Source: Acidobacteriota bacterium (GTDB lineage Bacteria; Acidobacteriota; CAIWXX01). From it: a stretch of DNA of 62,244 nt. The notes under the pieces were generated by a model. The model saw only the letters and a list, made by a program, of their open reading frames with translations, was not told where the DNA came from and searched no databases. A program made the translations under genes and the position numbers. The first letter of the stretch is position 1; each line of letters begins with the position of its first letter. Positions 5,711 through 58,186 of the stretch are shown here, piece by piece. The stretch spans positions 1 through 62,244 of the forward strand of contig JACPPM010000304.1 in assembly GCA_016191015.1 (NCBI GenBank), read 5' to 3'.

Positions 5711-5808
5711 CTCGATTCTCCCCATCCTGCTGCCGGATCCTGCCGGCGAACTGGGGTGGCCACCGATCCTCCTTTCAGGCCGGATGAAGAAGATCGTCGC
5801 CGCCACCC

Positions 5809-5852
5809 GCTCATACAGACCGCAGAGAGCGGAAATCATACCAGTGCGCCGC
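5809..5852 (-). promoter_or_regulatory. Conserved 44-bp upstream element, copy A
   Basis: On the minus strand this begins GCGGCGCACTGGTA and ends TCTGTATGAGC. The same arrangement, with exactly 30 bases between GCGGCGCACT and GAGC, recurs at 9239-9282 and 15566-15609, each time upstream of a secreted-protein gene. It could be an alternative-sigma promoter with a -35-like GCACTRGTA and a -10-like CGRTCTTAT about 16 bases apart. It ends about 99 bases from the GTG start at 5710. Confidence 0.55.
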
Positions 5853-5925
5853 ATCACACATCGGGTTGACGGTGACTACTCCCCGGTTCCCCGCCGCTCG
5901 TCCAGGACATCATGAGTCGCGCGCC

Positions 5926-7008: not shown

Positions 7009-7168
7009 GGTTGAACCTCCCAGGGACCTACTTGGCCACCTCTGTGCACCCAAGCTCGCCCCTTTGCTTCTCTAGACACCGGGTTGAATAAATCCTACTA
7101 ACGCGTGTTTGCGTGTCTCTGCTCCGCCTGAGATGGGGGCTCGAAGCCGGGGTGCTCTTCTATGGCTG

Positions 7169-9070: not shown

Positions 9071-9238
9071 CTCATCCCTCCCTGTATCTCTTGCGCTCCG
9101 CGGCGAGCACGGTATCGCCTGAACGATTGTGTTGTTGGCCTCGTGCGCCGCAGCGACCGCCCCGCCGAAACAACGGTCGCGATGATGTAGCGGCCGCAGG
9201 GTTCTGTTGCCGCTCTGCCTGTGAAGCTCATGCCCCTT

Positions 9239-9282
9239 GCTCAATAAGACCGCGTGGAGCGGGATATGTACTAGTGCGCCGC
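9239..9282 (-). promoter_or_regulatory. Conserved 44-bp upstream element, copy C
   Basis: On the minus strand it runs from GCGGCGCACTAGTA to GGTCTTATTGAGC. Spacing matches copies at 5809-5852 and 15566-15609. It lies in the gap between the two propeller genes and ends about 169 bases before the start at 9070, so the downstream propeller probably has its own promoter. Confidence 0.55.
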
Positions 9283-9306
9283 AGCACGCGCGCGCATCTT
9301 GTAGCT

Positions 9307-16439: not shown

Positions 16440-16498
16440 TTGACTCCAAATCCGGGTATATGGGATTATCATGATGATGAAAGTCAATGTCATTATCA
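16440..16498 (+). promoter_or_regulatory. Promoter with Fur-box-like operator
   Basis: TTGACT at 16440-16445 and GATTAT at 16464-16469 form a -35/-10 pair with an 18-base spacer. The AT-rich stretch from 16464 to 16498 contains overlapping GATNAT-like hexamers and ends TGTCATTATC, resembling tandem Fur half-sites (GATAAT). It is similar in form to the clearer box at 21397-21423. It lies directly before the outer-membrane protein gene that starts the FeoA/ATPase operon, suggesting iron repression. Confidence 0.55.
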
Positions 16499-16512
16499 AA
16501 AAGGAAGACCCA

Positions 16513-17379
16513 ATGAAAACTTTGTTATTTCGCGCACTTCTTTTGGGCACCATCGCGGCGGCGGCGCCGGGTGTCGATCCGGTCGCGCGCGCCGAGGAGG
16601 CCGTCAGTTCGGCTGGAAGCTCGACTGGGAAGTATCCCCAGGCCATCGAGGACAATTCGTATTTCATCGAGGAGGCGTACAACCAGGAGACCCGGGTTGT
16701 CCAACACATTTCCAACTTCACCTATTTCCGATCACCGGCGCGCACCCTCGGGTACAGCTTCACACAAGAGTGGCCCGTCCGGAGCCAACGACACCAGCTC
16801 AGCTACACGATCCCCTACATCACACAGGGCGACGGACTCGGAAACGGGATCGGCGACGTCTTGCTGAACTACCGGTATCAGCTATCGGGGCACGATGCGG
16901 CCGTGACGACGGCCCCGCGGGTCTCACTCGTTTTCGCCAGCGGCGACGAAGCGAAGGGGCTCGGCTGGGGAGCCAACGGCCTCCAGTTCAACTTTCCGAT
17001 GAGCAAGCGGCTGAGCGCGGGGCTCGTGGTTCATGCCAACGCCGGTGCGACCGTCCTGCTTGCGGCGAAGGGAGAGACGAGCGCCGGTGGAGAGATCAAG
17101 GAGAACCTCTGGACCTACAACGTTGGAGGGAGCGTGATCGGATTGCTCACGCCGAAATTCAACGTGATGCTCGAAGCCGTCTCGCTCTTCAGCGACGATT
17201 TCGACAATCAGGGACAGGTGAAGAGAAACACGGAAACTATCGTCAGCCCCGGATTCCGATACGCCGTCAATCGCGGATCTCTACAGATCGTTCCCGGCTT
17301 TGCCCTGCCCGTCAGTATCACATCGGAGAAGACGCGGGTTGGTGCCTTCTTCTACCTTTCGCTGGAGCATCCCTTCTAG
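16513..17379 (+). CDS. Outer-membrane beta-barrel, PF13557-like transporter
   Basis: About 288 residues. A signal peptide (MKTLLFRALLLGTIAAAAPG) leads to alternating amphipathic strands typical of the 'MetA-pathway of phenol degradation' outer-membrane family, including QLSYTIPYITQGDGLGNGIGDVLLNYRYQL and the C-terminal aromatic end LSLEHPF. ATG 16513 has AAAGGAAG upstream; an in-frame ATG at 16471 has no such site and lies inside the operator. It heads the metal-ATPase cluster, so passage of metal or a metal complex across the outer membrane is inferred from context only. Confidence 0.75.
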   Translation: MKTLLFRALLLGTIAAAAPGVDPVARAEEAVSSAGSSTGKYPQAIEDNSYFIEEAYNQETRVVQHISNFTYFRSPARTLGYSFTQEWPVRSQRHQLSYTIPYITQGDGLGNGIGDVLLNYRYQLSGHDAAVTTAPRVSLVFASGDEAKGLGWGANGLQFNFPMSKRLSAGLVVHANAGATVLLAAKGETSAGGEIKENLWTYNVGGSVIGLLTPKFNVMLEAVSLFSDDFDNQGQVKRNTETIVSPGFRYAVNRGSLQIVPGFALPVSITSEKTRVGAFFYLSLEHPF

Positions 17380-17645: not shown

Positions 17646-17813
17646 ATGGTTCCACTGGGACCGCTGCAGTTTGGCGACAGAGCGGAGGTCGTCGAGATCA
17701 TCCCGGGAGCGCGTCCGTTTGCGCGTGTCGAGGACATGGGATTCCGCGCAGGAAAAACGGTCGAGATCCGGACTAACGAAATCCGGGGCCCGCTTCTGGT
17801 GAGGATGGAATGA
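17646..17813 (+). CDS. feoA: Short FeoA-domain protein
   Basis: A 55-residue frame: MVPLGPLQFGDRAEVVEIIP, then RVEDMGFRAGKTVEIR and GPLLVRME. It fits the SH3-like FeoA fold of ferrous iron transport (xxGxxAxVxxI... LxxLGFxxGxxVxVxRxxxxxGPLLVRV) but stops before the last two strands (usual length about 75 residues), so it is either a minimal or a 3'-truncated FeoA. Its TGA overlaps the ATG of the P-type ATPase gene (17810), so they are translationally coupled. No FeoB is present in the window. The 266 bases before it (17380-17645) contain no gene that I can support. Confidence 0.75.
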   Translation: MVPLGPLQFGDRAEVVEIIPGARPFARVEDMGFRAGKTVEIRTNEIRGPLLVRME

Positions 17814-20002
17814 TGAACCTGTCGATGATGAAGCCGGGTGAGACTGGAAGAATGGCAAGCGTCGGACTGACGGGGTCCCGCCGGATGCCGCCAGGAAAAG
17901 AGCCGTCTTCGCCCACGGTTCAGCCTCGCGTCGTCAGCGAGATTCCCAAGCGGCTCAGAGTCGAGCTTCGGGTTCCAGGGGGCTGGGAGATCGATGTCTG
18001 CGAAGTGGAAAGGGCGCTGGCGCACAGCGGCACGGCCACGACGTTCGCGATCAGCCGACATACAGGCCGGATTCTTCTGCGTTATGACGGAGCTGCCGCT
18101 GAAAGGAACGCTCTCCTGGCTGCGCTGAGCCAGATGCCCTTGTCCATCGCCGCGCGCCGACGGGCGCCACGAAACGAGCTGGGCAGGCGGAAGAGGGCAG
18201 TCGTCAGATCGGTCGCGTCGCTCGTTCTCTCGCCTCTCCTCGCTCCGGGCGCGCGGACCGCCGTCACCATCTGCGGTGCTTTCCCGATTCTTCGGAAGGG
18301 ACTGACGGCGCTCTCGCGGAGGAGCCTCAACGTGGACGTCCTTGACGCTTCAGCGATATGCGCAGCCGTCGGCCTGCGCGAGCTCCGAACAGCAAGTCTC
18401 ATCACTCTGCTCCTGAAAGTCGGCGACTACCTCAGTGAATGGACGAAGGAGAAGTCGCGGAAGAGTCTCGGCCGGATGTTTTTTTCGGAAAGCAGTCACG
18501 CGTGGGTTCGCAGGAATGGTAAGGAGCTCGCCGTGGCACCGGAAGATCTGGCCGTTGGTGACATGGTGGTTGTGCGAGCTGGTTTCCGGATTCCCGTCGA
18601 TGGCGTCGTGGCGGAGGGCGACGCGATGGTGAATCAGTCATCGCTGACAGGCGAGGCGTTGCCGGTCGTGAAATGCGTCGGAATGCTGGTATACGCGGGG
18701 ACTATGGTGGAGTCCGGTCGTCTTGCTGTTCGAGCCGTCAAGGTCGGTGAAGACCGGCGCGTCGCTCGCATCATCCGGGTCATTGAGGAATCAGAAGGGG
18801 CGCGGGCCGAGGTGCAATCGCACGCCGAGAGGCTTGCAGACAGGATCGTGCCGTTTTCCTTCATCGTCAGCGGCCTCGCCTACGTGTTGACCGGCAACCT
18901 CACGAAAGCAGCCTCCGTCTTGTTGGTTGACTACTCCTGCGCGATCAAGCTGTCGACCCCCCTGGCCATCAAGGCCGGTATGATCCAAGCGGCCAAGCAT
19001 GGAGTTTTGATCAAGGGTGGGAGATTCCTCGAGAAGCTGTCGCGGGCGGATGTGTTCGTGATCGACAAGACCGGCACACTCACAGAGGCCTCCCCGCGGG
19101 TTCTGGACGTAGTTCCCTTTTGTGGGTGGAATCGGGAGCGATTGCTGCGAGACACGGCCTGCATCGAAGAGCATTTCCCTCATCCTGTTGCCAACGCGGT
19201 CGTGAGGCTGGCCAAGGAGGAGGGGATCGCACACGAGGAGGAACACGGTGAGGTGGACTATGTCGTCGCGCATGGGATCGTCTCCAGGATCAAGGGGCAG
19301 AGAATCATGGTCGGGAGCAGGCATTTCATCTCCGAGGACGAGGGGATCGACACGACGGTGGCCGATCCGATCATCGAGCAGTCCGCACGGCATGGACATT
19401 CGGCCATTTACGTTGCCATGGAAGATCGCCTGGTGGGAGTCATTCTTGTCGAAGACCCGCTGAGGAATTCGTCGAGGGAATTCCTGACCGGGCTGAAGGC
19501 AGCGGGCATCAGCAGGATCATTATGCTAACCGGTGATTGCGCGGAAGCGGCTACGAGCGTGGCCGAACGACTCGGCATCGGCGAATTCCTCGCCGAGGTG
19601 CTACCGGATGCGAAAACGGCGATCATCCGGAGGCTGAGAGACGAAGGCCATGTCATCGCGATGATCGGTGACGGCGCCAACGACTCGCCCGCACTGGCCG
19701 TCGCGGACGTCGGCATATCATTGAAGGAGGGCGCGGAAATAGCCAGGGAGGCCTGTGACATCCTTCTCCTCAACGGCAACCTTCTGGCCATCCTCGATGC
19801 GCATAGGGTCTCACGGCAAGCGATTGCGCTGGTGCGGAGGAACTTCCGCTACATTTTTGGTATCAACTCCCTGCTCATATTGCTCGGGCTGGCCGGCGCC
19901 TTTCCACCGGCTATCTCCGCGGTGGCGCATAACGGCACGACTTTGGTTTTCGCACTGAATAGCATCCGCGCGCTTCTCAAAGGCGTGGGCGGAAACGAGT
20001 AG
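17810..20002 (+). CDS. P1B-type heavy-metal-transporting ATPase
   Basis: A 730-residue P-type ATPase. An N-terminal HMA2-like domain (RLRVELRVPGGWEIDVCEVE...TGRILLRYD, about residues 45-100) precedes the membrane region. The actuator TGEALP, phosphorylation site DKTGTLT (about D419), nucleotide-domain HP (EEHFPHPVAN) and hinge GDGANDSPAL are all intact. The metal-site helix reads YSCAIKLSTP (about C377), not CPC, so copper is unlikely; manganese, zinc or iron are open. It is coupled to the short feoA and followed by an HMA2 protein and two small membrane proteins, an arrangement reminiscent of mycobacterial CtpC with its PacL partner. Efflux of metal across the inner membrane is the likely reaction. 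Confidence 0.9.
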   Translation: MMNLSMMKPGETGRMASVGLTGSRRMPPGKEPSSPTVQPRVVSEIPKRLRVELRVPGGWEIDVCEVERALAHSGTATTFAISRHTGRILLRYDGAAAERNALLAALSQMPLSIAARRRAPRNELGRRKRAVVRSVASLVLSPLLAPGARTAVTICGAFPILRKGLTALSRRSLNVDVLDASAICAAVGLRELRTASLITLLLKVGDYLSEWTKEKSRKSLGRMFFSESSHAWVRRNGKELAVAPEDLAVGDMVVVRAGFRIPVDGVVAEGDAMVNQSSLTGEALPVVKCVGMLVYAGTMVESGRLAVRAVKVGEDRRVARIIRVIEESEGARAEVQSHAERLADRIVPFSFIVSGLAYVLTGNLTKAASVLLVDYSCAIKLSTPLAIKAGMIQAAKHGVLIKGGRFLEKLSRADVFVIDKTGTLTEASPRVLDVVPFCGWNRERLLRDTACIEEHFPHPVANAVVRLAKEEGIAHEEEHGEVDYVVAHGIVSRIKGQRIMVGSRHFISEDEGIDTTVADPIIEQSARHGHSAIYVAMEDRLVGVILVEDPLRNSSREFLTGLKAAGISRIIMLTGDCAEAATSVAERLGIGEFLAEVLPDAKTAIIRRLRDEGHVIAMIGDGANDSPALAVADVGISLKEGAEIAREACDILLLNGNLLAILDAHRVSRQAIALVRRNFRYIFGINSLLILLGLAGAFPPAISAVAHNGTTLVFALNSIRALLKGVGGNE

Positions 20003-20071
20003 ATCCAATTGGACAGTCACGCTTTCTTGATCGGCGAATCGGAACGCAACAGATCCCATGGAGGACATAGA

Positions 20072-20464
20072 ATGGCACCCTTAAGCATTTTGCCGGGAAG
20101 AGTGAGGTTCGAATCACCCGACTTCCTCGGCCGCATCGATATGTGTGAGCGCGTGGAGAGCGAGCTCGGCCAGGTTGACGGCATCCTATGCGTTTCAGCG
20201 AATCACCGGACCGGTCGGCTGCTCGTCGAGTTTGACGGTGCACGCATGAGCGCGAGCAGCGCGACCTCTCATGTGGACCGCGCTCTCAAGCGGGCTGCTT
20301 CCAACTGTCGTTCGGCGGAGCAGGTGCGCGGTCGCGCAGTGCGCCATCGAAGATCGTCGTCGGAGGCCGTGCAGCGAGCCTTTGTCGATGTCATTGCGCA
20401 AGCCATCTTGCCAAGACCCATGAATGTCTTGCTCCGCGCGGCAATGAGCTCGTCAAAGGAATAG
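20072..20464 (+). CDS. HMA2-domain protein
   Basis: About 130 residues. SILPGRVRFESPDFLGR...VESELGQVDGILCVSANHRTGRLLVEFD matches the HMA2 type of metal-associated ferredoxin-like fold, which lacks the CxxC metal pair. The C-terminal third is basic. ATG 20072 has GGAGG seven bases upstream. The same fold forms the N-terminus of the ATPase encoded just before it, so this protein probably interacts with the pump or replaces its regulatory domain (inference). Confidence 0.75.
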   Translation: MAPLSILPGRVRFESPDFLGRIDMCERVESELGQVDGILCVSANHRTGRLLVEFDGARMSASSATSHVDRALKRAASNCRSAEQVRGRAVRHRRSSSEAVQRAFVDVIAQAILPRPMNVLLRAAMSSSKE

Positions 20465-20606
20465 AACATCCCGTGGCCGATCGCAATTGGCAGGCGCATG
20501 CTTCCTCGCGGGAGGGGAACGTCTCGGGGTTTCGCTTCCCGAGGCGGGAGGCGGGTCGAGCCAACAGAAAATCATCGTATCGCGAAATAGAGGAGGAGAC
20601 GATCGT

Positions 20607-21068
20607 ATGAGCACAGACAGACTCGGAACAGCAACGAATCGGGAACGTTACGGGGCGGGGCGAGGAAAGCCACACGGACAGGAAGTCGACGATGGCGAGC
20701 GCACGGCACTCGGATCGGCAGATACCGTGTTCCTCAGCACGAGCGGTTTCTGGCTGCTGGCCGGAGGGGCGCTCGGTGCACTGGCCGCGTTCGGCGCCGG
20801 GAAAGCCATGAACCGCTTCAGGCCGCAGGTCGTTGGCGCCGTGAAGGAGGGCTACGCCTTCAAGGAGTGGATCGCGTCGAAGGTGGAACGTGCGAAGGAG
20901 GATGTCGAGGACATCGCGGCCGAGGCGCGTCACGGATATCACAGTGATCTGGTCACGACCGTCGACTCAATCCGAAGGGAGCAGGAGATCTTGCGACGAG
21001 CCGAGGAGGCCATCGAGAAGAGAATGAAAAACCAACGATCCTCATCCGACACGGAACAGGAGGTCTAG
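20607..21068 (+). CDS. Small membrane protein of ATPase cluster, PacL-like
   Basis: About 153 residues. A polar N-terminus is followed by one glycine/alanine-rich membrane segment (WLLAGGALGALAAFGAGKAM, about residues 48-68). A long charged helix follows (EWIASKVERAKEDVEDIAAEAR) and a glutamate- and arginine-rich coiled tail. This topology (one span plus E/A-rich helix beside a P1B ATPase) resembles DUF1490/DUF5132 proteins such as mycobacterial PacL1, which scaffolds CtpC. The PacL1 metal motif is not evident. The start is set by GGAGGAG eight bases before ATG 20607. Confidence 0.65.
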   Translation: MSTDRLGTATNRERYGAGRGKPHGQEVDDGERTALGSADTVFLSTSGFWLLAGGALGALAAFGAGKAMNRFRPQVVGAVKEGYAFKEWIASKVERAKEDVEDIAAEARHGYHSDLVTTVDSIRREQEILRRAEEAIEKRMKNQRSSSDTEQEV

Positions 21069-21373: not shown

Positions 21374-21423
21374 TTGACCGAGGTATCGTTCTCGCCGATA
21401 ATGATAATGAGAGTCAGTATCAT
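21374..21423 (+). promoter_or_regulatory. Promoter with Fur box
   Basis: TTGACC at 21374-21379 and GATAAT at 21397-21402 are spaced by exactly 17 bases. The -10 is the first half of a strong Fur box running to 21423 (GATAATGATAATGAGAG then TCAGTATCAT), where GATAAT-type hexamers repeat. Fur-iron bound here would cover the -10 and start site. It drives the chelatase-receptor gene at 21596. Confidence 0.8.
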
Positions 21424-21595: not shown

Positions 21596-24301
21596 GTGAT
21601 CAGTCGATTCTGGAATTTGATCATAGCCCTCATGGCATTCGCCGGAGCGGCGTCAGTTGGTGCCGAAGAGGCCCGGCCTTCTGTGACTTCCGGGCCGGCC
21701 ATTCTCGCCATCGCGCACGGAGGCAGCGAGGACTGGAACCGGCAGGTGAAGGAGGCGGTAGCCGAGCTCAAGGGTCACTGCCTGGCAGAGGTGGGATTCC
21801 TTATGGGCGTACCGGACCGGCGCCCAGAGGAAGCGTACAGGGCGCTGATCGATGCGGGCGCGGCGGAGGTCGTGATCGTGCCCTTGTTCGTGAGCTCGCA
21901 CAGCGATCACTATGAGCAGGTCAGGTTTCTGGCCGGCCTGCGAGCGGACTACCCGCACGCTGAGCACATGCAGCTGCAACGGCTCGTGGGGCCTGCTAAG
22001 GTTCTCGGTGTCACATCCGCACTGGACGACAATCCGCATCTTGAACGGATTCTCAACGACCGTGCGCGTGCGCTGTCCGCGGAGGCCCGAGGCGAGCGCC
22101 TCATTCTCGTTGCCCATGGCCCCAACGACGACGAAACGGCGGCGATCTGGATCGCGAATCTCGACCGCGTGGCAGCCGGTGTTCAGGAGCGGCTTGGGCT
22201 CGCGGCAGCAGAGGTCCGGCTGCTTCGGGACGACGCCCCGCCGGAAGTGAAGGACGTGGCACTCGCTCAGCTCCGGGGCGCCGTCGCCACATCGCGGGAA
22301 CGGGTCCTCGTGGTGCCCGTGCTTCTCGCCACGGGCAAGGTCCTGTTCCAGATTCCCGAGGTTCTCAAAGGACTCAGCTATGCGTGGGACGGGACGCCAC
22401 TCATCCCCCACCCGGCACTGGCCGAGTGGATCGAACAGCAAGCTCGCGAGCTGGCGGCGGGGAGGAGCACGACACAGATGCGGCCGCACGAGGACGTGAT
22501 TGTGACGGCCACGCGCACCAGGCACAGTCAGACGGACTCGGCGGTCGAGACGACGCTCGTCTCCTCAAGAGAGATCGAAGCCGCTCAGCCACGATCCGTG
22601 GCCGACATCATCAGCCGCCAGGTCGGCCTCGACGCAGTGCCGACTCTTGGTGGACAGGGGATCAGAATCCAGGGGTTCTCGCCACGGCACGTGCTGCTGC
22701 TGGTAGACGGAGTCGAGGTGTGCGGCAAGATCGGGAGCAGCGTCGACGCTTCCACTCTAACCGCGGAAGGTGTCGATCACATTGAAGTCGTGCGCGGCGC
22801 CACGTCGGCCCTATACGGCTCCGAAGCGCTCGGCGGTGTCATCAACGTGATAACGAAGTCCCCGCAGAGTCGTCTGTCGACCGCCATGACGACGGCATTT
22901 GAGTCCAATGGGGGACGATCGTTCTCGGGGGAGATCGGGAGCAAACGCGAGGCCTGGGACGCTGTTGGACATTTCGGATTGCGGCACCGGGACTCCTACG
23001 ATCTGACGCCTGAGGACCCCGGCACTACCGGCGGGAGGTTTGACCGGTACCACGGAGACATGAAGGTCAGCCGTGCCTTAGGGGGGAGCAACCGAATCAG
23101 CTTCTCTTCTCGCTTCTATGACGAAGAGGCCCGTGACATCACTCTTGGGCGTGGCGCTCTCTACGATGACCGAACCGGGGACAGGCGCGTCACAAACAGC
23201 GTCGGAATCGAGCTGAAGCCGACGGCCCTGTCGGACCTTTCGATGAGAGTCAGCCACGGCCGCTTCTGGCACACTTTCGAGCGCACGACATCGGCCGCGG
23301 CTGTTTTGAGCACCGACCGCGATCGCCAGGATTTGACCGAAATCGTGGCGCAATACACGACGATCGTGGGATCGCACGGGGTTAGCGTCGGAGGGGAGCT
23401 GGAGCGCGCCTCGATTTCGGCGAGCCGCGTCCCAGGTTCCTCCCGCCGGCTGGAAACCGCCGTCGCATTCGCTCAGGACGAAGTCACTCTCGGGAGCCGT
23501 CTCATGATCGCAGGCGGTCTCCGCTACGACGCCAACTCGGTCTATGGCGGCGTCCTGTCTCCAAGGATCGCCGTCGGAGTGCGTGCGACTCCCAACATCA
23601 TCGTTCGTGCGGCGTATGGTCAGGGGTTCAAGGCTCCGGACTTCAAAGAACTGTACATCGACTTCGGCAACCGTGCGGCGGGATACAAGATCGTGGGCAA
23701 CCCCGACCTTGACCCGGAGACATCAAGAAGCTTCTCGTCCTCATTGTGGATCAATGCCGGCGGCGGGACCGATCTGCGGGTCAGCGCCTTTCGCCATCGC
23801 ATCAGCAACCTCATTGACTCGTATTTCGTCCGATTTGATCCTGCCTCTTCGACGAGCATCTTCAGCTATCGGAACACGGCGAGCGCCACGCTGAGCGGGG
23901 TGGAGGTCGAAGGAAACCACACTATTGGCGGCGCTTTCAGCATCGGCGGGGGCTACATGTTTCTGCGGGCTCGCGATGGACTCACCGGTTACGACCTCCT
24001 GCAAAGACCCGTTCACCGCGGCGTCGTCAAGCTGTTCTACGAAAACCCCAAGAGCGCGGCCCAGGTTACTATTCGCGCCGCCGGACGCCAAGGGTTCTCG
24101 GACACCAATGGTGATGGCGAGGCCGACGAGCTAGCGCCGTCGAACGTATTCGTCGACCTTCGTGTGGCGCGCCGGATCTTCGGGGGCTTCGAATCGTTTG
24201 CCGGTATCGAGAATCTCCTTGACCACAACCATCCGCGCTATCTTCCGATCGAGGGGCGTCGCATCTATGCCGGGGTCACCTACACGTTCGACGGGGAGTG
24301 A
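21596..24301 (+). CDS. CbiX-type chelatase fused to TonB-dependent receptor
   Basis: About 901 residues. Start GTG 21596 is chosen because GGAGGAG precedes it and the product begins with a clean signal peptide (FWNLIIALMAFAGAASVGA). Residues about 35-290 form two CbiX/sirohydrochlorin-chelatase halves. The first has AHGG (H41) and SSHSDHYEQ (H102, H105), the paired-histidine metal site. The second has VAHG (H174), but its second site reads ATGKV, without histidine. From about 300 (VIVTATRTR) there is a TonB plug, with RGATSALYGSEALGGVINV, then a barrel ending in FD-GE. A chelatase exported to the periplasm and tethered to an outer-membrane receptor suggests import of a metal-tetrapyrrole or metal complex coupled to metal insertion or removal. 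Confidence 0.85.
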   Translation: MISRFWNLIIALMAFAGAASVGAEEARPSVTSGPAILAIAHGGSEDWNRQVKEAVAELKGHCLAEVGFLMGVPDRRPEEAYRALIDAGAAEVVIVPLFVSSHSDHYEQVRFLAGLRADYPHAEHMQLQRLVGPAKVLGVTSALDDNPHLERILNDRARALSAEARGERLILVAHGPNDDETAAIWIANLDRVAAGVQERLGLAAAEVRLLRDDAPPEVKDVALAQLRGAVATSRERVLVVPVLLATGKVLFQIPEVLKGLSYAWDGTPLIPHPALAEWIEQQARELAAGRSTTQMRPHEDVIVTATRTRHSQTDSAVETTLVSSREIEAAQPRSVADIISRQVGLDAVPTLGGQGIRIQGFSPRHVLLLVDGVEVCGKIGSSVDASTLTAEGVDHIEVVRGATSALYGSEALGGVINVITKSPQSRLSTAMTTAFESNGGRSFSGEIGSKREAWDAVGHFGLRHRDSYDLTPEDPGTTGGRFDRYHGDMKVSRALGGSNRISFSSRFYDEEARDITLGRGALYDDRTGDRRVTNSVGIELKPTALSDLSMRVSHGRFWHTFERTTSAAAVLSTDRDRQDLTEIVAQYTTIVGSHGVSVGGELERASISASRVPGSSRRLETAVAFAQDEVTLGSRLMIAGGLRYDANSVYGGVLSPRIAVGVRATPNIIVRAAYGQGFKAPDFKELYIDFGNRAAGYKIVGNPDLDPETSRSFSSSLWINAGGGTDLRVSAFRHRISNLIDSYFVRFDPASSTSIFSYRNTASATLSGVEVEGNHTIGGAFSIGGGYMFLRARDGLTGYDLLQRPVHRGVVKLFYENPKSAAQVTIRAAGRQGFSDTNGDGEADELAPSNVFVDLRVARRIFGGFESFAGIENLLDHNHPRYLPIEGRRIYAGVTYTFDGE

Positions 24302-24306
24302 AGGAA

Positions 24307-24519
24307 ATGGAAAATGAAGTATTGTCTACTGGAAGCAGATCCGACCGACTGGTTACGCGTTGCCCGCATGGGTGCATTCATCTGACGTGGGGCGATGTCT
24401 CCATACGATTCGGTCCCGCCGACTTCGAAATCTTTGTCGAGATGGCGCGGGAGGCCGTCAGCAACATCGAGCCATCCACCGATCCTCGGCTCCCGAGTGA
24501 GTTGCCCGTGGTTCACTAG
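24307..24519 (+). CDS. Small CPHGCIHL-motif protein
   Basis: About 70 residues. ATG 24307 follows the receptor stop by five bases, with GGGGAG eight bases upstream. The core, CPHGCIHLTWGDVSIRF followed by a short helix, is short and compact, with one cysteine pair and two histidines that could bind metal or heme. It resembles small proteins annotated only as conserved hypothetical. Being the last gene of the receptor transcript, it probably acts in the same uptake process (inference). Confidence 0.6.
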   Translation: MENEVLSTGSRSDRLVTRCPHGCIHLTWGDVSIRFGPADFEIFVEMAREAVSNIEPSTDPRLPSELPVVH

Positions 24520-24599: not shown

Positions 24600-25124
24600 C
24601 TAGCCCCGATTTCGGGCCGTCGTTTTCCTGCGTGCCCGTCGAACCTCTCTCTCGATATCCCCGGTGGCGGTTGCCGTGGCACGGCATTGCCGGCAGAGCC
24701 CGCCCACCTCCAGGCGAGCCACTCGCACTTTGAATCTCCTCTGACGGGATATCTGAGTCTTCAGACGGCCGAACAACGGGCTTTCGAATTCTTCGATCCG
24801 CCCGCACTGAAGGCAGGCCAGGTGCACATGATCGACGTTGGGTTTCGCCTCATAGAAGTGCTTCTCACCATCGAGATGCATGAGATCAAGCTCGTCGATC
24901 AAGCGGAGACTTTTCAGCAAGTCCAACGTCCGGTAGACGGTCGCCCGATTGATCCGGCTGTCACGATCCCGCGCGAGCGCCAGGAGAGTAGCGGCATCGA
25001 GGTGACCTTCGGATTCCTGCATTATTTCGATGAGGGTTTTTCGCTGGGCGGTGATGCGAATCCCCCGATGCCTGAGATCCTGCAGCAACAGATGACGTTC
25101 CGGAGCTTTTGATCTTATCCTCAT
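24600..25124 (-). CDS. Fur-family metalloregulator
   Basis: About 174 residues. The winged helix (RGIRITAQRKTLIEIMQ ... RATVYRTLDLLKSLRLI) is followed by the Fur dimerisation and metal domain: HFYEAKPNVDHVHLACLQCGRIEEF and a second CxxC (CRQC). The tail is about 30 residues longer than usual. I place the start at ATG 25124. Upstream starts at 25145/25148 would lie within the predicted operator and at the transcription start. No strong ribosome site is visible for any choice. It follows the FTR1/P19 operon and faces the chelatase-receptor genes, making it the likely local iron regulator, though PerR or Zur activity cannot be excluded. Confidence 0.85.
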   Translation of the reverse strand: MRIRSKAPERHLLLQDLRHRGIRITAQRKTLIEIMQESEGHLDAATLLALARDRDSRINRATVYRTLDLLKSLRLIDELDLMHLDGEKHFYEAKPNVDHVHLACLQCGRIEEFESPLFGRLKTQISRQRRFKVRVARLEVGGLCRQCRATATATGDIEREVRRARRKTTARNRG

Positions 25125-25129
25125 CGTGC

Positions 25130-25178
25130 TGCGACGTGCTCGCATCAATAGTGGACCCGATCAGCCGGGCGATGTCAA
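25130..25178 (-). promoter_or_regulatory. Regulator promoter with degenerate operator
   Basis: On the minus strand TTGACA (25173-25178), a 17-base spacer, and a weak -10 TCCACT (25150-25155) are followed by TGCGACGTGCTCGCA as read on the plus strand (25130-25144). Its outer five bases on each side match the perfect palindrome of the FTR1 promoter (33128-33146), and so does the layout around it, including the spacer end ATCGGGT and an ATTG after the -10. Autoregulation is inferred. Confidence 0.45.
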
Positions 25179-25256: not shown

Positions 25257-25979
25257 TCAAGTGCCAACCGCCGTGAGGCTGGGCTCGGCGACCATCGGGG
25301 ATGCCGCGCATCGCCTCGTGCCTCGCGTGCCGCCGGAGGCCAGGCGCCCATGGCTGAGCACGACCACGGTGTCCGCGTGCCGCGCGATCTCTGGGTTGTG
25401 AGTGACGAGCACGATGGTGCGCCCCTGCGCGTGGCACTCACGAAGGAGATCAAGGACAACCTCCTCGTTCTTCCGATCGAGGTTCCCGGTCGGCTCGTCC
25501 GCCAGCAGGATCGCGGGATCGTTGATGAGAGCCCGTGCAATGCAGACCCTCTGCTGCTCTCCGCCGGAGAGCTGGGAGGGCTTGTGCCGCGCTCGATCCC
25601 CCATCCCTATCGCATCGAGAGCGCCTCTGGCCTCCCTTATGTTGGCCATGCTGTGGAAGTGCTGGGCGAGCATCACGTTCTCGAGAGCGGAGAGATAGGG
25701 CACGAGGTGAAACTGCTGGAAGATGAACCCGATCCTCTCCCGGCGAATGGCCGCCAGCTCATTGGCGCTGAATCGCGCCACGTCCTGCCCGTCGACGACG
25801 ATGCTTCCCGAAGTCGGCACGTCGAGGCAGCCCAGAAGATTGAGCAACGTGGTCTTGCCCGAACCCGACGGGCCCATGATGGCGACCCACTCGCCCTGCT
25901 CGATTTCGAGGTCGATGCCATCAAGCGCCTTGACCGCGCCATACTTCTTTACGACATTTGTCACTTTGACCATACTCAT
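25257..25979 (-). CDS. ABC transporter ATPase of the P19/Fet-type iron system
   Basis: A 240-residue ATPase of the LolD/MacB type: Walker [11 protein letters not shown]-loop [13 protein letters not shown], signature LSGGEQQR, Walker [13 protein letters not shown] and the H-loop VTHNPEIA. The C-terminus carries about 30 extra weakly conserved residues. It would energise the two FtsX-type permeases encoded immediately upstream in the same transcript. In Campylobacter and E. coli the equivalent gene belongs to the P19/FetMP cluster, where it is thought to drive an exporter or mechanotransmission step supporting iron uptake. Confidence 0.9.
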
Positions 25980-26006
25980 GAAACTTAGCTCCCAGGCCTT
26001 GCGGCC

Positions 26007-27140
26007 TCATTCTCCCTTCAGCACCATGGCTGGCGGGATGCCGGCGACTCTTTTCAGCGGAATCACAGCACCGGCGAGTGTGATGATAAGTGAGGAAGCG
26101 AGCACGGGTACCGCGAGCCAGCCGTGGATCGTGACGGCGGTCCCGAAGATAGTGCGCGCCATGAGGTGCGCCAAGCCGTAGCCGGCCACCAGTCCGCAGA
26201 GACCTCCCACGAGACCCGTGACCATCACCTCGGCCAGGAAGTGAACCCCCACCGTGCGATCGGCGGCACCCAACGCCTTCATCAGGGCAGCCTCCTTCCG
26301 ACGCTCCGACACTGTTGCCATGAGCGAGATCAGGAGGCAGACGAAAGTGGAGAGGACGATGAAGGCGACGACCACGTACACCACGGAGCCGATGGTCGTC
26401 AGGACCTCCCCTTCAGAGCGGGAGAGCTTTCGGATCGGCTCGGCCCGGCACCTGCGCACGCGCTGCTCCACTTCGCGCGCGAAGCGATCTGCCTGCGCGA
26501 CATCGCCGACGATGCTCGCGGCGAGCAGATCGATCTCACCAGGCCGCGCGAACAGGGCCCGTGCCGCCTCAATCGGCAGGAACACCTGCTCGTCCTCGGC
26601 GCCGCCCGTCTCGACGATGGCCGCAACCGTCGGCCGTTGCGCCCGCCCATCGTGCTCGACCGCGAGCTCACCCCCGATCTCGATGCGAAGCCTCCCCGCG
26701 ACGTCCTTGCCGAGCAGGCACGCTCCCGTCGCCGCACCTCCTGGGATAGCCCCGGAAGCGACCTGCCAGAACGGGGTGGTCGCCTCGATGCTGTCGAAGT
26801 CGATCCCCACGATCACGATACGAACGTCCTTCAGCGTGCCGGCGCCGTAGACGAGCCGCTGTGCTCCGACCAGCCGCTCGACAGGGATCACCGCGCGCAG
26901 CGCGGCCAGGGCATCGTCATGCAGACTGACTTCCGGGGCCGCGCTTTTCACCACGAAGTTGGCGCCGTAGGCGCGGAGCTCCCGGCTCATCTTCGTCTCG
27001 ACATCCGAGTAGAGCGTCACGAAGGCTGCGACGACCGATGTTCCGAGGGCGACGGTGAGCATCGAGACGATGATACGCGCCTTGCGCTCGATCAGCGACC
27101 GCGAAAGCAGGGTCCAGAAGTAGGAACGTGGTCCTCGCAT
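26007..27140 (-). CDS. FtsX-type ABC permease, second of pair
   Basis: About 377 residues. One N-terminal span (ARIIVSMLTVALGTSVVAAF), a large periplasmic MacB-like domain and three C-terminal spans (YVVVAFIVLSTFVCLLISL, AEVMVTGLVGGLCGLVAGY, VPVLASSLIITLAGAVIPL) with the ERRKEAALMKALGA coupling loop. Start 27140 has AGGGAG seven bases upstream. An alternative ATG at 27158 overlaps the stop of the preceding gene as ATGA; the choice adds six residues. Longer upstream readings overlap the previous gene and are rejected. Confidence 0.85.
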   Translation of the reverse strand: MRGPRSYFWTLLSRSLIERKARIIVSMLTVALGTSVVAAFVTLYSDVETKMSRELRAYGANFVVKSAAPEVSLHDDALAALRAVIPVERLVGAQRLVYGAGTLKDVRIVIVGIDFDSIEATTPFWQVASGAIPGGAATGACLLGKDVAGRLRIEIGGELAVEHDGRAQRPTVAAIVETGGAEDEQVFLPIEAARALFARPGEIDLLAASIVGDVAQADRFAREVEQRVRRCRAEPIRKLSRSEGEVLTTIGSVVYVVVAFIVLSTFVCLLISLMATVSERRKEAALMKALGAADRTVGVHFLAEVMVTGLVGGLCGLVAGYGLAHLMARTIFGTAVTIHGWLAVPVLASSLIITLAGAVIPLKRVAGIPPAMVLKGE

Positions 27141-27154
27141 GTGTGTGCTCCCTG

Positions 27155-28444
27155 TCATTCCCCGGAGAGTGTGACTGACGGCTCGACCCGCAGGATCAAC
27201 CGCGCCGGGATCAAGCTCCCGGTCAGGCTCACGACAATGGAGAGGAGACCCACGACGGGAACGGTCCCGAGCTTCACCGACGCCCACGCGCCGAAGAGTT
27301 TTTGGCTGATCCCTTCGCAGACTCCGATCCCGAGGCACATTCCGAGGACACCGCCGACGAGCCCGGCCAGTGCGATTTCGGCGAGGAACATCAGCATGAC
27401 TTGCCCGTTTCCGGCCCCGAGTGCCTTGCACAGGCCTATCTCCTTTTTCCTGTCGGCGATCATCGTACCCGCCAGGCTGAAGACGCCGAGGGCCGAGCAC
27501 GACAGCGCAACCACGGTGACAACGGCCATGAGGAACTGGATCTTGCGGATCACTACGCCTTCGGACTCGGTGATCTGCCGTATGGGCTTCACCCGCGCCC
27601 CGGGGATAACCTCCTCAATTTGGTACGCCACGGCGTCGACGAAGGGCGAGCAGTACCAGACGTCGTACTCGCGGGTGGCGAGCGTCTCGCGGGCGTGCCG
27701 CGCCCTCCGGGCAAGATCGTTGTCGGGCATGGTGAGGGCGCTCACAAGCACTCTGTCCACCAGGTCATCGTGCCGCCCGAGCAGGCTCGCCACTTCGAGC
27801 GGCACGAAGACGCGCTCGTCTTCGTCCGCGCCTGTTCTCACGACACCGCACACGGCGAGGTTCACGGTCTCGCCGCCGTCGAGTGGGATCACGGGCAGCA
27901 CGTCACCAGGTCCCACGCTGAGCTTGCGAGCCACCTCGGCGCCCAGGACGGTCCCCCGCGGGTCGGCCGCGTCGTCGGGCCATCGGCCGGACATCGGCCA
28001 CAAGGGGTACACCCGAGCGATCCCCGCACGGAACTCATCGTCCGCCGCCACGGGGTAAGCCCTGTCGAACCAGGTCCCGACGATCGTGACGACATCGCCG
28101 CCCTTCGTCTTGGCGCGGGACTCGAGCAGAGGCGCGAAGGAGACGATATTGTGCTGCCAGAAGATCTCCTTGATGCGGGGCAGGCTCGCGAGGGGTATCC
28201 CATCTCGCTTCCGGAGAGGATCGTCGTCCAGGCCGCCCAGTCGCAGCGGCCCGTCGGTCGAGCGGGGGACGACGACCAGGTTGGCGCCGAAGCCTCGCAG
28301 CTCCTGGTTCATCTTGTCCCCGATGTCGAGGCTGAGGTTCAGGAGCGCTGTCGCGAGAGTTGTGCCGAGCGCGACGTTGAGCACCGCATAACTCTTGCGC
28401 CGCCGGTCGTGCCAGAGGGAGGCCCAGAGGAGGCGCGCGATCAT
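27155..28444 (-). CDS. FtsX-type ABC permease, first of pair
   Basis: About 429 residues with the same topology as the next gene's product: an N-terminal span (SYAVLNVALGTTLATALLNL), a long extracytoplasmic domain, then three spans with the DRKKEIGLCKALGA loop and a C-terminal LILRVEPSVTLSGE. Its ATG overlaps the TGA of the DUF2318 gene (ATGA), showing tight operon packing. The two different permeases presumably form a heterodimer with the ATPase. They correspond in order to cj1661/cj1662 of the Campylobacter p19 cluster (family knowledge). Confidence 0.85.
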   Translation of the reverse strand: MIARLLWASLWHDRRRKSYAVLNVALGTTLATALLNLSLDIGDKMNQELRGFGANLVVVPRSTDGPLRLGGLDDDPLRKRDGIPLASLPRIKEIFWQHNIVSFAPLLESRAKTKGGDVVTIVGTWFDRAYPVAADDEFRAGIARVYPLWPMSGRWPDDAADPRGTVLGAEVARKLSVGPGDVLPVIPLDGGETVNLAVCGVVRTGADEDERVFVPLEVASLLGRHDDLVDRVLVSALTMPDNDLARRARHARETLATREYDVWYCSPFVDAVAYQIEEVIPGARVKPIRQITESEGVVIRKIQFLMAVVTVVALSCSALGVFSLAGTMIADRKKEIGLCKALGAGNGQVMLMFLAEIALAGLVGGVLGMCLGIGVCEGISQKLFGAWASVKLGTVPVVGLLSIVVSLTGSLIPARLILRVEPSVTLSGE

Positions 28445-29688
28445 CGGTGATTCCCGTCGCCGTGGCGGAACGCGTCGGCGCCATCCCCGTGGAGCAGCGT
28501 GTCCACGGTGACGACCAATTCTCCTTCGGAGATGGCATACACGAGCGGTATGGGGTTGCAGCCGCCCTCGCGCCCCACGGTCGGGGCGTAGATCGCCGCT
28601 CCACACGCAAGACAGATCAGCTCCTTCCCACGCTTGAGATAACCTTCGTCGCCGCACATGAGGCAGGCGTCGTACGCCGCCCGGACCCTGCCGCTCTCGT
28701 CCTTGAAGACGATGAACCGAATCTCCTGGTTCTTCTCGTCGGAGTATGCGTAGCGGTGAAACTCCTCGGGCTTGAATCCCTCGACCGGGATGACGAGACG
28801 GCCCTGCCTCGCCTCCACGCGCTCGGCGGGCGAAAGCCGCGGGGGTTGGCTCGCGTACAGCTTGTAGTAGAGCGTGCCGACCATGGCCGCGCTCGCGACG
28901 CCGAGAAATGTCACACCGTATCTCCACTGCCTGCGTATGCCCCACAGGTACTTCCTCCGTCCCGCCGGGCTGAGATTATCGGCCCGCTCCCTGCGCGGCT
29001 TCTCGCGGTGCACATGACACCAGATGCCGAAGACGGTAGCGAGGCCCATCTGGCCGTAGCCGAACCAACGGATGCGGTTGATGACCGATGAGACGGTCGT
29101 GAAGAGGCTCTCTGGAAGCGACACCCAGCCGTGGAGGACCAAGGCGTAGTAGCCCCACGAGACGTGTTCGGAGACAAGGAGCGCGGTCGCCGCAACGGCC
29201 ACGGCCCTGCCGGCCGGCGCGCCACTCTGGGCCGAGAGCCGCGAGAGTGTCGCGCCGGCGGTCGCGAGGAGGGCAACGCCAAGGATGATCCCCCCGTGGA
29301 ACAGCAGGAACTCGCTGTTGAGGACGTCCACGCGATCCTGTGATCTGGAGACCACGAACGCGAGGAGCGCGGCAGAGCGTTGGGCCGTGAGGAGGAATGC
29401 GGCCAGGCGCCAGGCAGTCTCTAGAGGTCGCGCTCCCGCGAGCGAGAAGGGCACGAGCTGGGCGGCGAGGAACAGAGCCGTCGCGAGCATGACCAGCGGC
29501 TCGACGGGGGTGCGCACGTCGCGGAGCACATATAGGACCGCAAGGGCGACGCCGCCTGCGATCCCCCCGGCGAATGGAGACCACGGATGCCGGGGCCTCT
29601 CGCCGCCCCTCCCGCGGGCCGCGGGGAGGATCACCAACAAGACGACCGCGATGCCGTAGCGGATGGTCTCGAAGAACGACTCAGTCAC
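28441..29688 (-). CDS. DUF2318 iron-transport membrane protein
   Basis: A 415-residue protein. Eight or nine hydrophobic spans occupy about residues 10-290. A C-terminal cysteine domain follows: DACLMCGDEGYL, ELICLACGAAIYAP and EGGCNPIPL. These are the CxxC pairs and GGCNPI motif of DUF2318, a presumed Fe-S or iron-binding redox module. The start is GTG 29688, 18 bases after the porin gene's stop; no strong ribosome site is seen. The equivalent protein (Cj1660 type) follows P19 in Campylobacter; here a porin gene separates them. Confidence 0.85.
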   Translation of the reverse strand: MTESFFETIRYGIAVVLLVILPAARGRGGERPRHPWSPFAGGIAGGVALAVLYVLRDVRTPVEPLVMLATALFLAAQLVPFSLAGARPLETAWRLAAFLLTAQRSAALLAFVVSRSQDRVDVLNSEFLLFHGGIILGVALLATAGATLSRLSAQSGAPAGRAVAVAATALLVSEHVSWGYYALVLHGWVSLPESLFTTVSSVINRIRWFGYGQMGLATVFGIWCHVHREKPRRERADNLSPAGRRKYLWGIRRQWRYGVTFLGVASAAMVGTLYYKLYASQPPRLSPAERVEARQGRLVIPVEGFKPEEFHRYAYSDEKNQEIRFIVFKDESGRVRAAYDACLMCGDEGYLKRGKELICLACGAAIYAPTVGREGGCNPIPLVYAISEGELVVTVDTLLHGDGADAFRHGDGNHR

Positions 29689-29706
29689 GGAGGCTGCGTC
29701 CTCTGG

Positions 29707-31146
29707 TCAGAAGTCGATTTGGGTGCGCAGCGCGAAAACGAAGTAGTCGTCTGCCTCGCCGATGCCCCCCGGGCGATGGATGTACTGAATGTCCGGGCTC
29801 AGCCGCAGGTGCCGCTCCAAGAAGTAGCTGTAGTACGCCTCGAAGAAGGTCTCTCCGCCGGAGACCTCAACTCCGTCGAGGTCATAGGATACCTTGCCGT
29901 AGCTCCTGCTCGCGCGCGCGAATCCGGTGGCCAGGCCGAGGATATCACCGCCACGGCTCCAGCGGTTGCCCACAATGCGGGCGCCCAGCGTCACAACGTG
30001 GTCGAATCGGTTCACCGCGGGGTCCTGGAAACCGTACCGTCCGAAGAGCGTGAGGTCACCGGAAAGCTGGTGATCGAGGCTCATCCCGACTCCCCAGTTC
30101 TCCTTCTGCCGATTCGTCGAGATGTTCTCGTAGTCAAGATGGTCCGCCAGATTCGTCCAGGCATAGAGCCGGTACTTGCGCTGCAGTCCGTAGGCGCGGC
30201 GGCTCACGTCGATCTCGCCGATGACGAACGGGCCGCCGAAAGATTGGAGCGGGTCGCCACCGACCTCGAACACGCCGACCTGTGCCTCGACTTTCAGGTT
30301 CTGGTTGTAGATGGAAGTGAACCTGTACCCGAGTCGCGCTCCCAGGCCATATCCGTTCTCGTCCCCACCCCAGTCGACGGCGAGGTTATTGACAAACGTG
30401 TCCGCCATAAACTGCTGCCGTTGGTTGTTTGCGACGTCGTTGGCGTCGAAGAAGCGTCTGGGGTCCATCTTGCCAACTGTGATAGCGACGCGCTTATCGA
30501 TCACTGTCGGGAATGGCAGTTCGGTCTGGTACCACAGCTCCACGATGGAGGCACCGTCATCATGTCTCTCGAGGTCGGCATTGGGGCCGGAGAAGACAGG
30601 CGGAAGCGCGCCCGCCACCCCCCTTCCCTGACCGACCAAGGCTCGCGCATAGGCCCCGCCGTATGTCCCGAGCGGGACCTCGACGGCCAAGTCGCCGGAG
30701 AAACTCGCGTCCGTCCCCTTGCCCTCTCCGAAGGCATCCGATCTCCCGCCGCCGACCCCCTGCACGAAGGTGGTTACGGCACCGCTCACGCTGATTCCAT
30801 CGAGGCCATCCAACACACTCGCGCCCTCGCGCTGCGCGTAGCCGAGCCGGTCGACCTCGTCGGCGATCGCATCCACACGCTCCTGCAACGGCACCTCGTC
30901 AAGGACGCTCGCCTGTTCCGAGGGCGCCACCTCTGTGGCTGCAGCTTCGACCTGCCCGTTGCGATGCAGAGCCTCCTCCAGCTCTCGTACCCGTTCCTTC
31001 AACAGCTCGATCTCCTGCCTCAGATCACCGTCTGCACCCTCGGCCGACACGACCCGGCCAGGGAGACCGACAAGCAGAGTGAGAGCCCCGATCGCGACGG
31101 CGCGCCTCCCTGATGACAATCTCTTCTCGCAAAAGTCCCGCCTCAT
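29707..31146 (-). CDS. OprB-type outer-membrane porin
   Basis: About 479 residues. A signal peptide (VAIGALTLLVGLPGRVVSA) is followed by a coiled coil (LRQEIELLKERVRELEEAL, about residues 40-65). The remainder is a barrel with the carbohydrate-porin signature: GKMDPRRFFDANDVANNQRQQFM, DENGYGLGARLGYRF and the terminal FVFALRTQIDF. ATG 31146 overlaps the P19 stop. OprB-family members pass sugars, yet this one lies inside an iron operon, so it may be an iron- or ligand-permeable pore. The long readings extending upstream of 31146 belong to overlapping frames. Confidence 0.85.
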   Translation of the reverse strand: MRRDFCEKRLSSGRRAVAIGALTLLVGLPGRVVSAEGADGDLRQEIELLKERVRELEEALHRNGQVEAAATEVAPSEQASVLDEVPLQERVDAIADEVDRLGYAQREGASVLDGLDGISVSGAVTTFVQGVGGGRSDAFGEGKGTDASFSGDLAVEVPLGTYGGAYARALVGQGRGVAGALPPVFSGPNADLERHDDGASIVELWYQTELPFPTVIDKRVAITVGKMDPRRFFDANDVANNQRQQFMADTFVNNLAVDWGGDENGYGLGARLGYRFTSIYNQNLKVEAQVGVFEVGGDPLQSFGGPFVIGEIDVSRRAYGLQRKYRLYAWTNLADHLDYENISTNRQKENWGVGMSLDHQLSGDLTLFGRYGFQDPAVNRFDHVVTLGARIVGNRWSRGGDILGLATGFARASRSYGKVSYDLDGVEVSGGETFFEAYYSYFLERHLRLSPDIQYIHRPGGIGEADDYFVFALRTQIDF

Positions 31147-31688
31147 CAGAATCCCCGCCCCTTCCCGAGTCCGAGGAACTTGAACTCCCAGTCGAGGGTG
31201 AAGGTTGGAAACCACGGCCGCACGCCGGTGGCCTTGTCGGTGTGGCGGCCGAAGTGGTTCTTCTGTGGGTTCTCGATTGTGTACTCGACCTTGTAGCGGC
31301 CGATTCCCGGCATCTGCACGTTGTCTCCGTAATGCGGTCCGTCCGCGGCGACCATCGGCATCATGGTTCCCTCCACCGTCTTGCCGTTGTCGAGGTTCGT
31401 AAGCTTGTAGGTGACGGTGAGGTATGGGATCCACTCGCCCTCGCCGAAGCCGTTGGGGTTTTGGCTGCTGCCGCGAATGTCGGCCTCGAGGTGAATGTCG
31501 GCCTTCTCCTCCTTCTCCTTCGACATCGGCGGGTCCATCGTGACGGGCTGGAAGTAGACGGCGGTGATCTCCATTCCGTGGCGGACGAGCGGAAGGCCGA
31601 TGGGGTACTCGGTGAAAGCCAGCGCCCCGCTCGCACAAAGCAGGAGGCCGGCGACGGAGGCGGGAGCGATGAGTCTTCTTTGGGTCAT
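31146..31688 (-). CDS. P19/FetP-type periplasmic iron-binding protein
   Basis: A 180-residue protein. Signal peptide LIAPASVAGLLLCASGALA, then the P19 immunoglobulin-like fold. Candidate metal ligands are in the family positions: H37 and E40 (RHGMEI), M109-M112 (TMMPM), H119 (GPHYG) and H145/H149 (NHFGRH). P19 proteins bind copper and iron(II/III) and pass iron to FTR1. The start is marked by AAGGAG before ATG 31688. Its ATG overlaps the FTR1 stop, so both are made from one transcript and likely in fixed ratio. Confidence 0.9.
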   Translation of the reverse strand: MTQRRLIAPASVAGLLLCASGALAFTEYPIGLPLVRHGMEITAVYFQPVTMDPPMSKEKEEKADIHLEADIRGSSQNPNGFGEGEWIPYLTVTYKLTNLDNGKTVEGTMMPMVAADGPHYGDNVQMPGIGRYKVEYTIENPQKNHFGRHTDKATGVRPWFPTFTLDWEFKFLGLGKGRGF

Positions 31689-58108: not shown

Positions 58109-58186
58109 CACAGATTCTCTCACTCCAGCCGTCTCTCTCCCACCTCAATCTACGGAGCAGCCGCGCCCAAAGTTTCCCTTGGCGCT

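Follow-up and report, generated by a model that had tools for sequence, protein, structure and literature searches.

One open reading frame of an Acidobacteriota bacterium joins an exported chelatase of the CbiX type to a complete TonB-dependent receptor. It lies in a stretch of 62,244 nucleotides, which was analyzed as a whole and is called the window here. With even chances of being right, the fusion is read as an iron-regulated importer of heme or of a similar metal-tetrapyrrole, in which a periplasmic CbiX-type class II domain would remove the iron. The computational observations behind this reading are the domain architecture, the predicted fold, the conservation of the fusion, the co-occurrence of the family with HmuY, TonB receptors, and iron importers, and Fur-type boxes.

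The gene starts with a GTG codon preceded by a GGAGG ribosome-binding site and runs through 901 aa without interruption (Table 1). The earlier note had read it as one frame joining a signal peptide, two CbiX halves, a plug, and a barrel, and the open reading frame, Pfam, and the fold agree on this. Pfam recognizes CbiX (PF01903) at residues 45-142 with 39.8 bits against a cut-off of 22, the plug (PF07715) at residues 313-415 with 68.4 bits, and the barrel (PF00593) at residues 469-874 with 134.1 bits, the latter two also above cut-off. The second CbiX half of the window protein has no separate Pfam match; it repeats the pattern of the first half as LILVAHGPN at about residues 169-177, and both halves together are predicted to form one class II chelatase fold. 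Judging by the signal peptide, the CbiX part is exported, unlike the cytoplasmic location that is usual for CbiX and other class II chelatases, albeit not strictly defining for them. A cytoplasmic enzyme of cobalamin or siroheme synthesis was rejected on account of the signal peptide and the fusion to a barrel. The candidate TonB box follows a linker of low confidence in the structure model, and its residues E299 and R307 are invariant in five aligned fusions. Its position between CbiX and the plug suggests that the chelatase takes the place of the signalling or CarboxypepD domains of other receptors: FecA- and FpvA-type receptors likewise carry an extra N-terminal periplasmic domain before the TonB box, but this is a signalling domain where the fusion has a chelatase. 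The fusion is the sole CbiX match in its 6.4-Mb genome, which has 12 plug domains. A second TonB receptor of the window, at 55916-58123 on the reverse strand, consists of plug and barrel with a CarboxypepD_reg match below cut-off and is not of the fused type.

Table 1. Coordinates of the fusion gene, its parts, and neighboring features in the window
Feature	Position	Strand	Basis
Overlapping Fur-type boxes TGATAATGAGAGTCA (at 21402) and TGAGAGTCAGTATCA (at 21408), upstream of the fusion	21397-21422		Motif match
Fusion gene: signal peptide, CbiX-CbiX, TonB box, plug, barrel; 901 aa	21596-24301	+	ORF, Pfam, seven further genomes
Signal peptide, residues 1-23, cleavage ALMAFAGAASVGA/EEA, without lipobox cysteine	21596-21664	+	Sequence reading
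CbiX half 1, about residues 34-161	21695-22078	+	Pfam CbiX, conservation, AF2 model
H41 codon, CbiX half 1	21716-21718	+	Conservation
H105 codon, CbiX half 1	21908-21910	+	Conservation
DYPHAEHM loop, residues 118-125, CbiX half 1	21947-21970	+	Conservation
CbiX half 2, about residues 165-287; RDDA motif at 211-214	22088-22456	+	Alignments, two-lobed SirB/CbiX/CbiK/HemH fold match
H174 codon, CbiX half 2	22115-22117	+	Alignments
Candidate TonB box EDVIVTATR, residues 299-307, between CbiX and plug	22490-22516	+	Motif only
TonB receptor plug	22532-22840	+	Pfam PF07715
TonB-dependent beta-barrel with FKAP...GNPDL motif	23000-24298	+	Pfam PF00593; Foldseek BtuB, Cir, ChuA, PhuR
Small cysteine protein, 70 aa, CPHGCIHLTWG; possible accessory protein	24307-24519	+	Recurs beside relatives
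Fur-family regulator	24600-25148	-	Pfam FUR, 92.1 bits
FTR1-P19-type iron import cluster	25257-33103	-	Pfam, NCBIfam
ABC ATPase of the cluster	25257-25979	-	Pfam, NCBIfam
MacB/FtsX-type permeases of the cluster	within 25257-33103	-	Pfam, NCBIfam
FtrD-like protein of the cluster	28441-29688	-	Pfam, NCBIfam
P19/Iron_transport protein of the cluster	31146-31952	-	Pfam, NCBIfam
FTR1 of the cluster	31685-33103	-	Pfam, NCBIfam

The chelatase fold postulated for the N-terminal region is found in an AlphaFold2 model of residues 25-300, which was computed from this part of the window protein together with 34 family members and reaches a pLDDT of 93.4 and a pTM of 0.90. A Foldseek search against the PDB places SirB on top (8.6e-12), followed by DR2241, CbiK, CbiX, FetB, ferrochelatases, CfbA, and periplasmic CbiK, and a profile comparison yields CfbA (1.5e-11) and SirB, with FetB as a weak match (0.029). 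SirB and the long form of CbiX share the two-lobed architecture of the fusion but are cytoplasmic sirohydrochlorin chelatases, whereas the fusion is exported, carries a His/Met loop, and has an altered second histidine. In an alignment of 75 distinct family members (L055 being omitted as a duplicate of L035), H41 and H174 are invariant in 75 of 75, and W47, W185, R211, and D213 are near-universal. The claim of a retained histidine pair in the first half thus stands for H41 but only in part for H102, which is present in the window protein and replaced by F or T in three of the eight fusions; for the second half, the description of a kept H174 with the histidine-free partner site ATGKV is borne out. 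A further histidine, H105, located three residues after H102, is invariant in the fusions and is there the candidate partner of H41 instead of H102; it is present in 17 of 20 Gemmatimonadota sequences and absent in Bacteroidota. Each of the two pseudo-symmetric halves therefore retains one histidine throughout the family, while the second half is without the standard partner. Most members feature a His-rich or His/Met-rich loop after the H105 position—DYPHAEHM in the fusions, HHLHM in Gemmatimonadota, and MPLMHH or MDHSHG types elsewhere—that aligns with the His-rich loop of Methanocaldococcus jannaschii CfbA. From this conservation, H41, H174, the loop, and the RDDA motif are candidate ligands of a metal or ring.

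Bacteroidota relatives lack the canonical second histidine, the fusions have it displaced to H105, and the second half has lost it, so that catalysis could be gone. The CbiX part would then be a noncatalytic tetrapyrrole-binding domain, a tethered periplasmic carrier that accepts heme or another ring at the barrel, holds it, and hands it over. This alternative is unlikely. In its favor, besides the lost and variable partner sites, one histidine per half is always kept, the hemophore HmuY is a frequent neighbor in two phyla, and periplasmic binding proteins have a fold similar to that of class II chelatases (PMC12583661). The loop aligned with that of CfbA and the near-invariant R211 and D213, however, suggest a handling of metal that goes beyond holding, and the free-iron importers FTR1 and FeoB next to family members fit a release of iron better than a carriage of intact heme.

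The search for further fusions and their neighbors that the earlier note had proposed yielded seven more. Among 396 Acidobacteriota genomes, the fusion was found in four besides that of the window, with open frames of 927-1028 aa, and a scan of GTDB genomes added L053, L054, and L056; the set thus comprises eight fusions including the window, with L055 duplicating L035. The CbiX parts are 46-52% identical to that of the window protein. Type I fusions (window, L033, L034, L036, and L054) lack a CarboxypepD_reg-like stretch, whereas type II fusions have one between CbiX and the plug (L035 as assigned by Pfam, L053 and L056 as assigned by length and sequence). In the tree of CbiX parts, all eight fusions form one clade (99/97). 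In the receptor tree, they split: type I forms one clade (100/98), and type II nests within a clade (100/100) of receptors that are encoded separately beside unfused CbiX. L037, an unfused member of this latter clade, lies in G174, a genome that also carries a type I fusion. One CbiX clade with two receptor groups indicates that the fused CbiX module was joined to two receptor types, which, going by the trees, would have been acquired either through two fusions or through a receptor swap. No fusion was found among 297 Bacteroidota or 200 Gemmatimonadota genomes. A CbiX frame of 746 aa in L140 was rejected as a fusion because it overlaps a receptor lying in another frame, and a viral origin was rejected as a scan of viral contigs gave no relative. 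The assembly error that the earlier note had considered is excluded by the presence of the same architecture in seven further Acidobacteriota genomes. That the fusion is an annotation or assembly artefact, or a degenerate protein devoid of function, is barely conceivable, since the eight fusions come from divergent genomes, have open frames, and share conserved motifs, and since iron-type boxes stand upstream of family members.

Unfused exported double-CbiX proteins of about 300-350 aa occur in five phyla: Acidobacteriota, Bacteroidota, Gemmatimonadota, Verrucomicrobiota, and Elusimicrobiota. This form, found in up to 40 of the 297 genomes of Bacteroidota and up to 51 of the 200 of Gemmatimonadota if partial and weak matches are counted, is far commoner than the fusion, which is one form of a wider system of receptor and exported CbiX. 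Gene context was compared for 67 unfused loci. Those from Bacteroidota and Gemmatimonadota are high-scoring matches rather than randomly drawn ones, and loci that are related to each other do not count as independent. A TonB receptor lies on the same strand within 3 kb of CbiX in 30 of the 67 loci (13 of 27 in Acidobacteriota and others, 10 of 20 in Bacteroidota, and 7 of 20 in Gemmatimonadota). The density of receptors near CbiX exceeds that further out in the same loci about 20-fold, 9-fold, and 3-fold, respectively. HmuY is found within the same distance and on the same strand in 1 of 27, 10 of 20, and 6 of 20 loci of these groups, and Pfam confirms it in all ten neighbor proteins tested. 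The typical gene order is receptor-HmuY-CbiX in Bacteroidota and HmuY-receptor-CbiX in Gemmatimonadota. In L043, receptor and CbiX are followed by ferrochelatase, HemA-like, kinase-like, and URO-D genes, in this order. FTR1 lies downstream of CbiX in L061 and L102, and likewise behind the type II fusion of L053; FeoB neighbors CbiX in L064; and DtxR and ferritin stand beside CbiX in L033, L037, L053, L056, and L064. Many standalone relatives have neither receptor nor HmuY nearby. Overall, genome context strongly supports a coupling of exported CbiX to heme or iron uptake.

Several loci depart from these arrangements. In L049, a standalone exported CbiX whose loop is rich in His and Met is immediately preceded by a P1B ATPase with YHS and heavy-metal-binding domains (5727-9424); some family members may accordingly handle a metal other than iron. 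In L102, an additional short exported CbiX-like protein (9172-9783, reverse strand; GHGAPAKDFP) separates HmuY from the double CbiX, and behind the latter comes an FTR1 protein of 653 aa with a cytochrome c domain. The exported protein of 567 aa at 6588-8291 on the reverse strand of L050 adjoins a TonB receptor and apparently bears duplicated, four-lobed CbiX-like regions; forms of 560-600 aa resembling it occur in Bacteroidota. L058, labelled Bacillota, is nearly identical in content to the Terriglobia locus L057 and is probably a mislabelled or contaminated bin.

A call of the ligand from the receptor sequence failed, as the receptor matches families for hemin, B12, Cir, and siderophores alike, short of the curated cut-offs (TonB-hemin 192.6 of 316.9 bits and TonB-B12 189.1 of 599.7, for instance). 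The receptor part features FKAP and GNPDL motifs with no histidine between them, unlike the FRAP-His-NPNL of classic heme receptors. It shares plug, barrel, and TonB box with BtuB, CirA, and ChuA, which lack a chelatase domain. PepSY_TM proteins are often linked to ferric-siderophore reduction, and such proteins neighbor CbiX in L043 and L067. Together with the receptor part being closest to Cir and BtuB by both sequence and fold, this could point to another iron or cobalt chelate as ligand, a siderophore or a corrinoid, from which the domain would release the metal or salvage corrinoids. We consider this very unlikely: HmuY and genes of heme biosynthesis neighbor the relatives, no genes for B12 biosynthesis or BtuCDF were seen beside the fusions, and the FecCD locus of the genome lies on another contig with a receptor of its own. 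The HmuY neighbors rather suggest heme or a heme-like ring.

Upstream of the fusion, the box at 21408 is an exact 7-1-7 palindrome, TGANANTNANTNTCA, and the overlapping one at 21402 deviates by one mismatch. The site matches the Fur consensus at 16 of 19 positions, and the best of ten shuffles reaches 15 of 19. Over the upstream regions of 34 family loci (20.4 kb in total), TGANANTNANTNTCA has nine exact copies where 0.41 would be expected—about 20-fold, with the expectation derived from the same loci, of which all 552 kb hold only 11 exact copies. An exact box is found in only three of the eight fusions in the upstream stretch scanned. With the Fur-family gene next to the fusion, these boxes tie the system to iron and suggest iron as the prize. 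No pair of sigma and anti-sigma factors was recognized among the neighbors examined. A second exact box, TGAAAGTCAATGTCA, lies at 16478-16492, just upstream of the likely start of 16513-17379 (forward strand, within the open reading frame 16471-17379), which encodes an apparently exported protein without a Pfam family; by its box, this protein may also be iron-regulated.

Characterized class II chelatases are insertases, and the CbiX domain could thus insert or exchange metal in imported porphyrins. It would then act as a ferrochelatase or transmetallase of the periplasm, a role that has been put forward for its fold neighbor FetB. According to a review, the latter inserts manganese in Porphyromonas gingivalis and so yields Mn-protoporphyrin IX (PMC13402209). 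The genome of the window, whose completeness is given as 100%, has a HemB match and no match to ferrochelatase (PF00762) or the Ahb type (PF17805), so that a terminal chelatase is missing; by the same token, the organism may depend on external heme. Such a role is nevertheless quite unlikely, since Fur-type boxes and free-iron importers imply expression in iron shortage, when an extracytoplasmic insertion of iron makes little sense, and no manganese genes were seen beside CbiX. For the insertion or removal of metal that the earlier note proposed for the entering ligand, iron-type regulation and neighboring free-iron importers favor removal; a binding-only role is conceivable but less likely.

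The FTR1-P19 cluster of the window is convergent with the fusion and not part of the same operon; by its proximity, it is a candidate importer of periplasmic iron. A search for HmuY in this genome, made without a positive control, found none. Homologs of the small cysteine protein directly follow the fusion in L034 and L054, and similar small proteins, with weak profile similarity, stand beside CbiX in L047, L066, and L065 and in the Bacteroidota loci L114, L116, L119, and L120 (DUF6686-like). Upstream of the fusion, the forward strand of 17810-21065 encodes first a P1B-type metal ATPase without a recognized metal-binding domain, and then a protein with an HMA_2 domain and an orphan. ATPases of a similar kind are also found close to CbiX in L049 and L060.

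FetB/IhtB of P. gingivalis is a CbiK-like lipoprotein linked to the TonB receptor IhtA. The comparison drawn in the earlier note is apt, as both systems combine an exported class II chelatase fold with a link to heme uptake (FetB, 9b86, matches the fold with an E value of 2.6e-5). FetB/IhtB is, however, a separate lipoprotein of the CbiK type, whereas the fusion is of the CbiX type, lacks a lipobox, and is joined to the receptor; PF06180 (CbiK) has no match in the window protein and a marginal one in L034 (26.7 against 26.2 bits). The periplasmic CbiK of Desulfovibrio vulgaris (2xvx and 2xvz) is also an exported class II chelatase, but of the CbiK type, with a fold E value of about 2e-4 to the CbiX part of the window, and we know of no receptor fusion for it. 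HmuS, a class I chelatase, removes iron from heme in Bacteroides, the direct evidence dating only from 2025 (PMC12583661), and periplasmic iron released from heme depends on FeoAB for its import (PMC6460266). Like relatives of the fusion, HmuS adjoins HmuY and a TonB receptor, and the same extracytoplasmic removal of iron is proposed; its Met-rich insert has a counterpart in the His/Met-rich loop of the CbiX family. HmuS is large, membrane-bound, and CobN-like, whereas the class II domain of the fusion is small, and neither Pfam nor fold comparison gave a CobN-like class I match in the window protein.

For the removal of iron from an imported ring, the following course is conceivable. The ligand would enter through the barrel and pass to the CbiX domain in the periplasm, which would strip the iron from the ring with H41 and H174, one per half, as candidate ligands. 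The FTR1 and FeoB neighbors suggest that iron is delivered free in the periplasm, from where a separate inner-membrane permease would import it—FTR1/P19 next door here, and FeoB or FTR1 in relatives. In this simplest reading, a TonB receptor would supply a de-chelatase of class II in the periplasm, the counterpart of HmuS in that class. In this course, we infer the identity of the ligand, catalysis, its direction, and channelling.

The system proposed here, akin to a heme de-chelatase, would be a member of the CbiX fold family outside both HmuS and the CbiK-like lipoproteins. No report of a CbiX-TonB receptor fusion was found in the open-access literature searched, which is no proof of absence, and no paper interpreting a linkage of hmuY and cbiX was found there; a gene list of Rhodothermus marinus shows cbiX beside hmuY as an incidental mention, matched by gene name (PMC6987092). 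With somewhat less than an even chance, exported CbiX-type class II heme de-chelatases are a widespread family that fills the role of HmuS for iron-regulated heme uptake in at least three phyla and are, in some Acidobacteriota, built into the TonB receptor to split ring and metal at the barrel exit. How iron is obtained from heme without opening of the ring is largely open beyond gut Bacteroidota. If the proposal holds, soil and aquatic phyla would use a second, structurally different class of chelatase for this task and so a new enzymatic route, the single polypeptide would let uptake and processing be tested together, and the annotation 'cobalamin biosynthesis protein CbiX' would be corrected for the exported members of the family.
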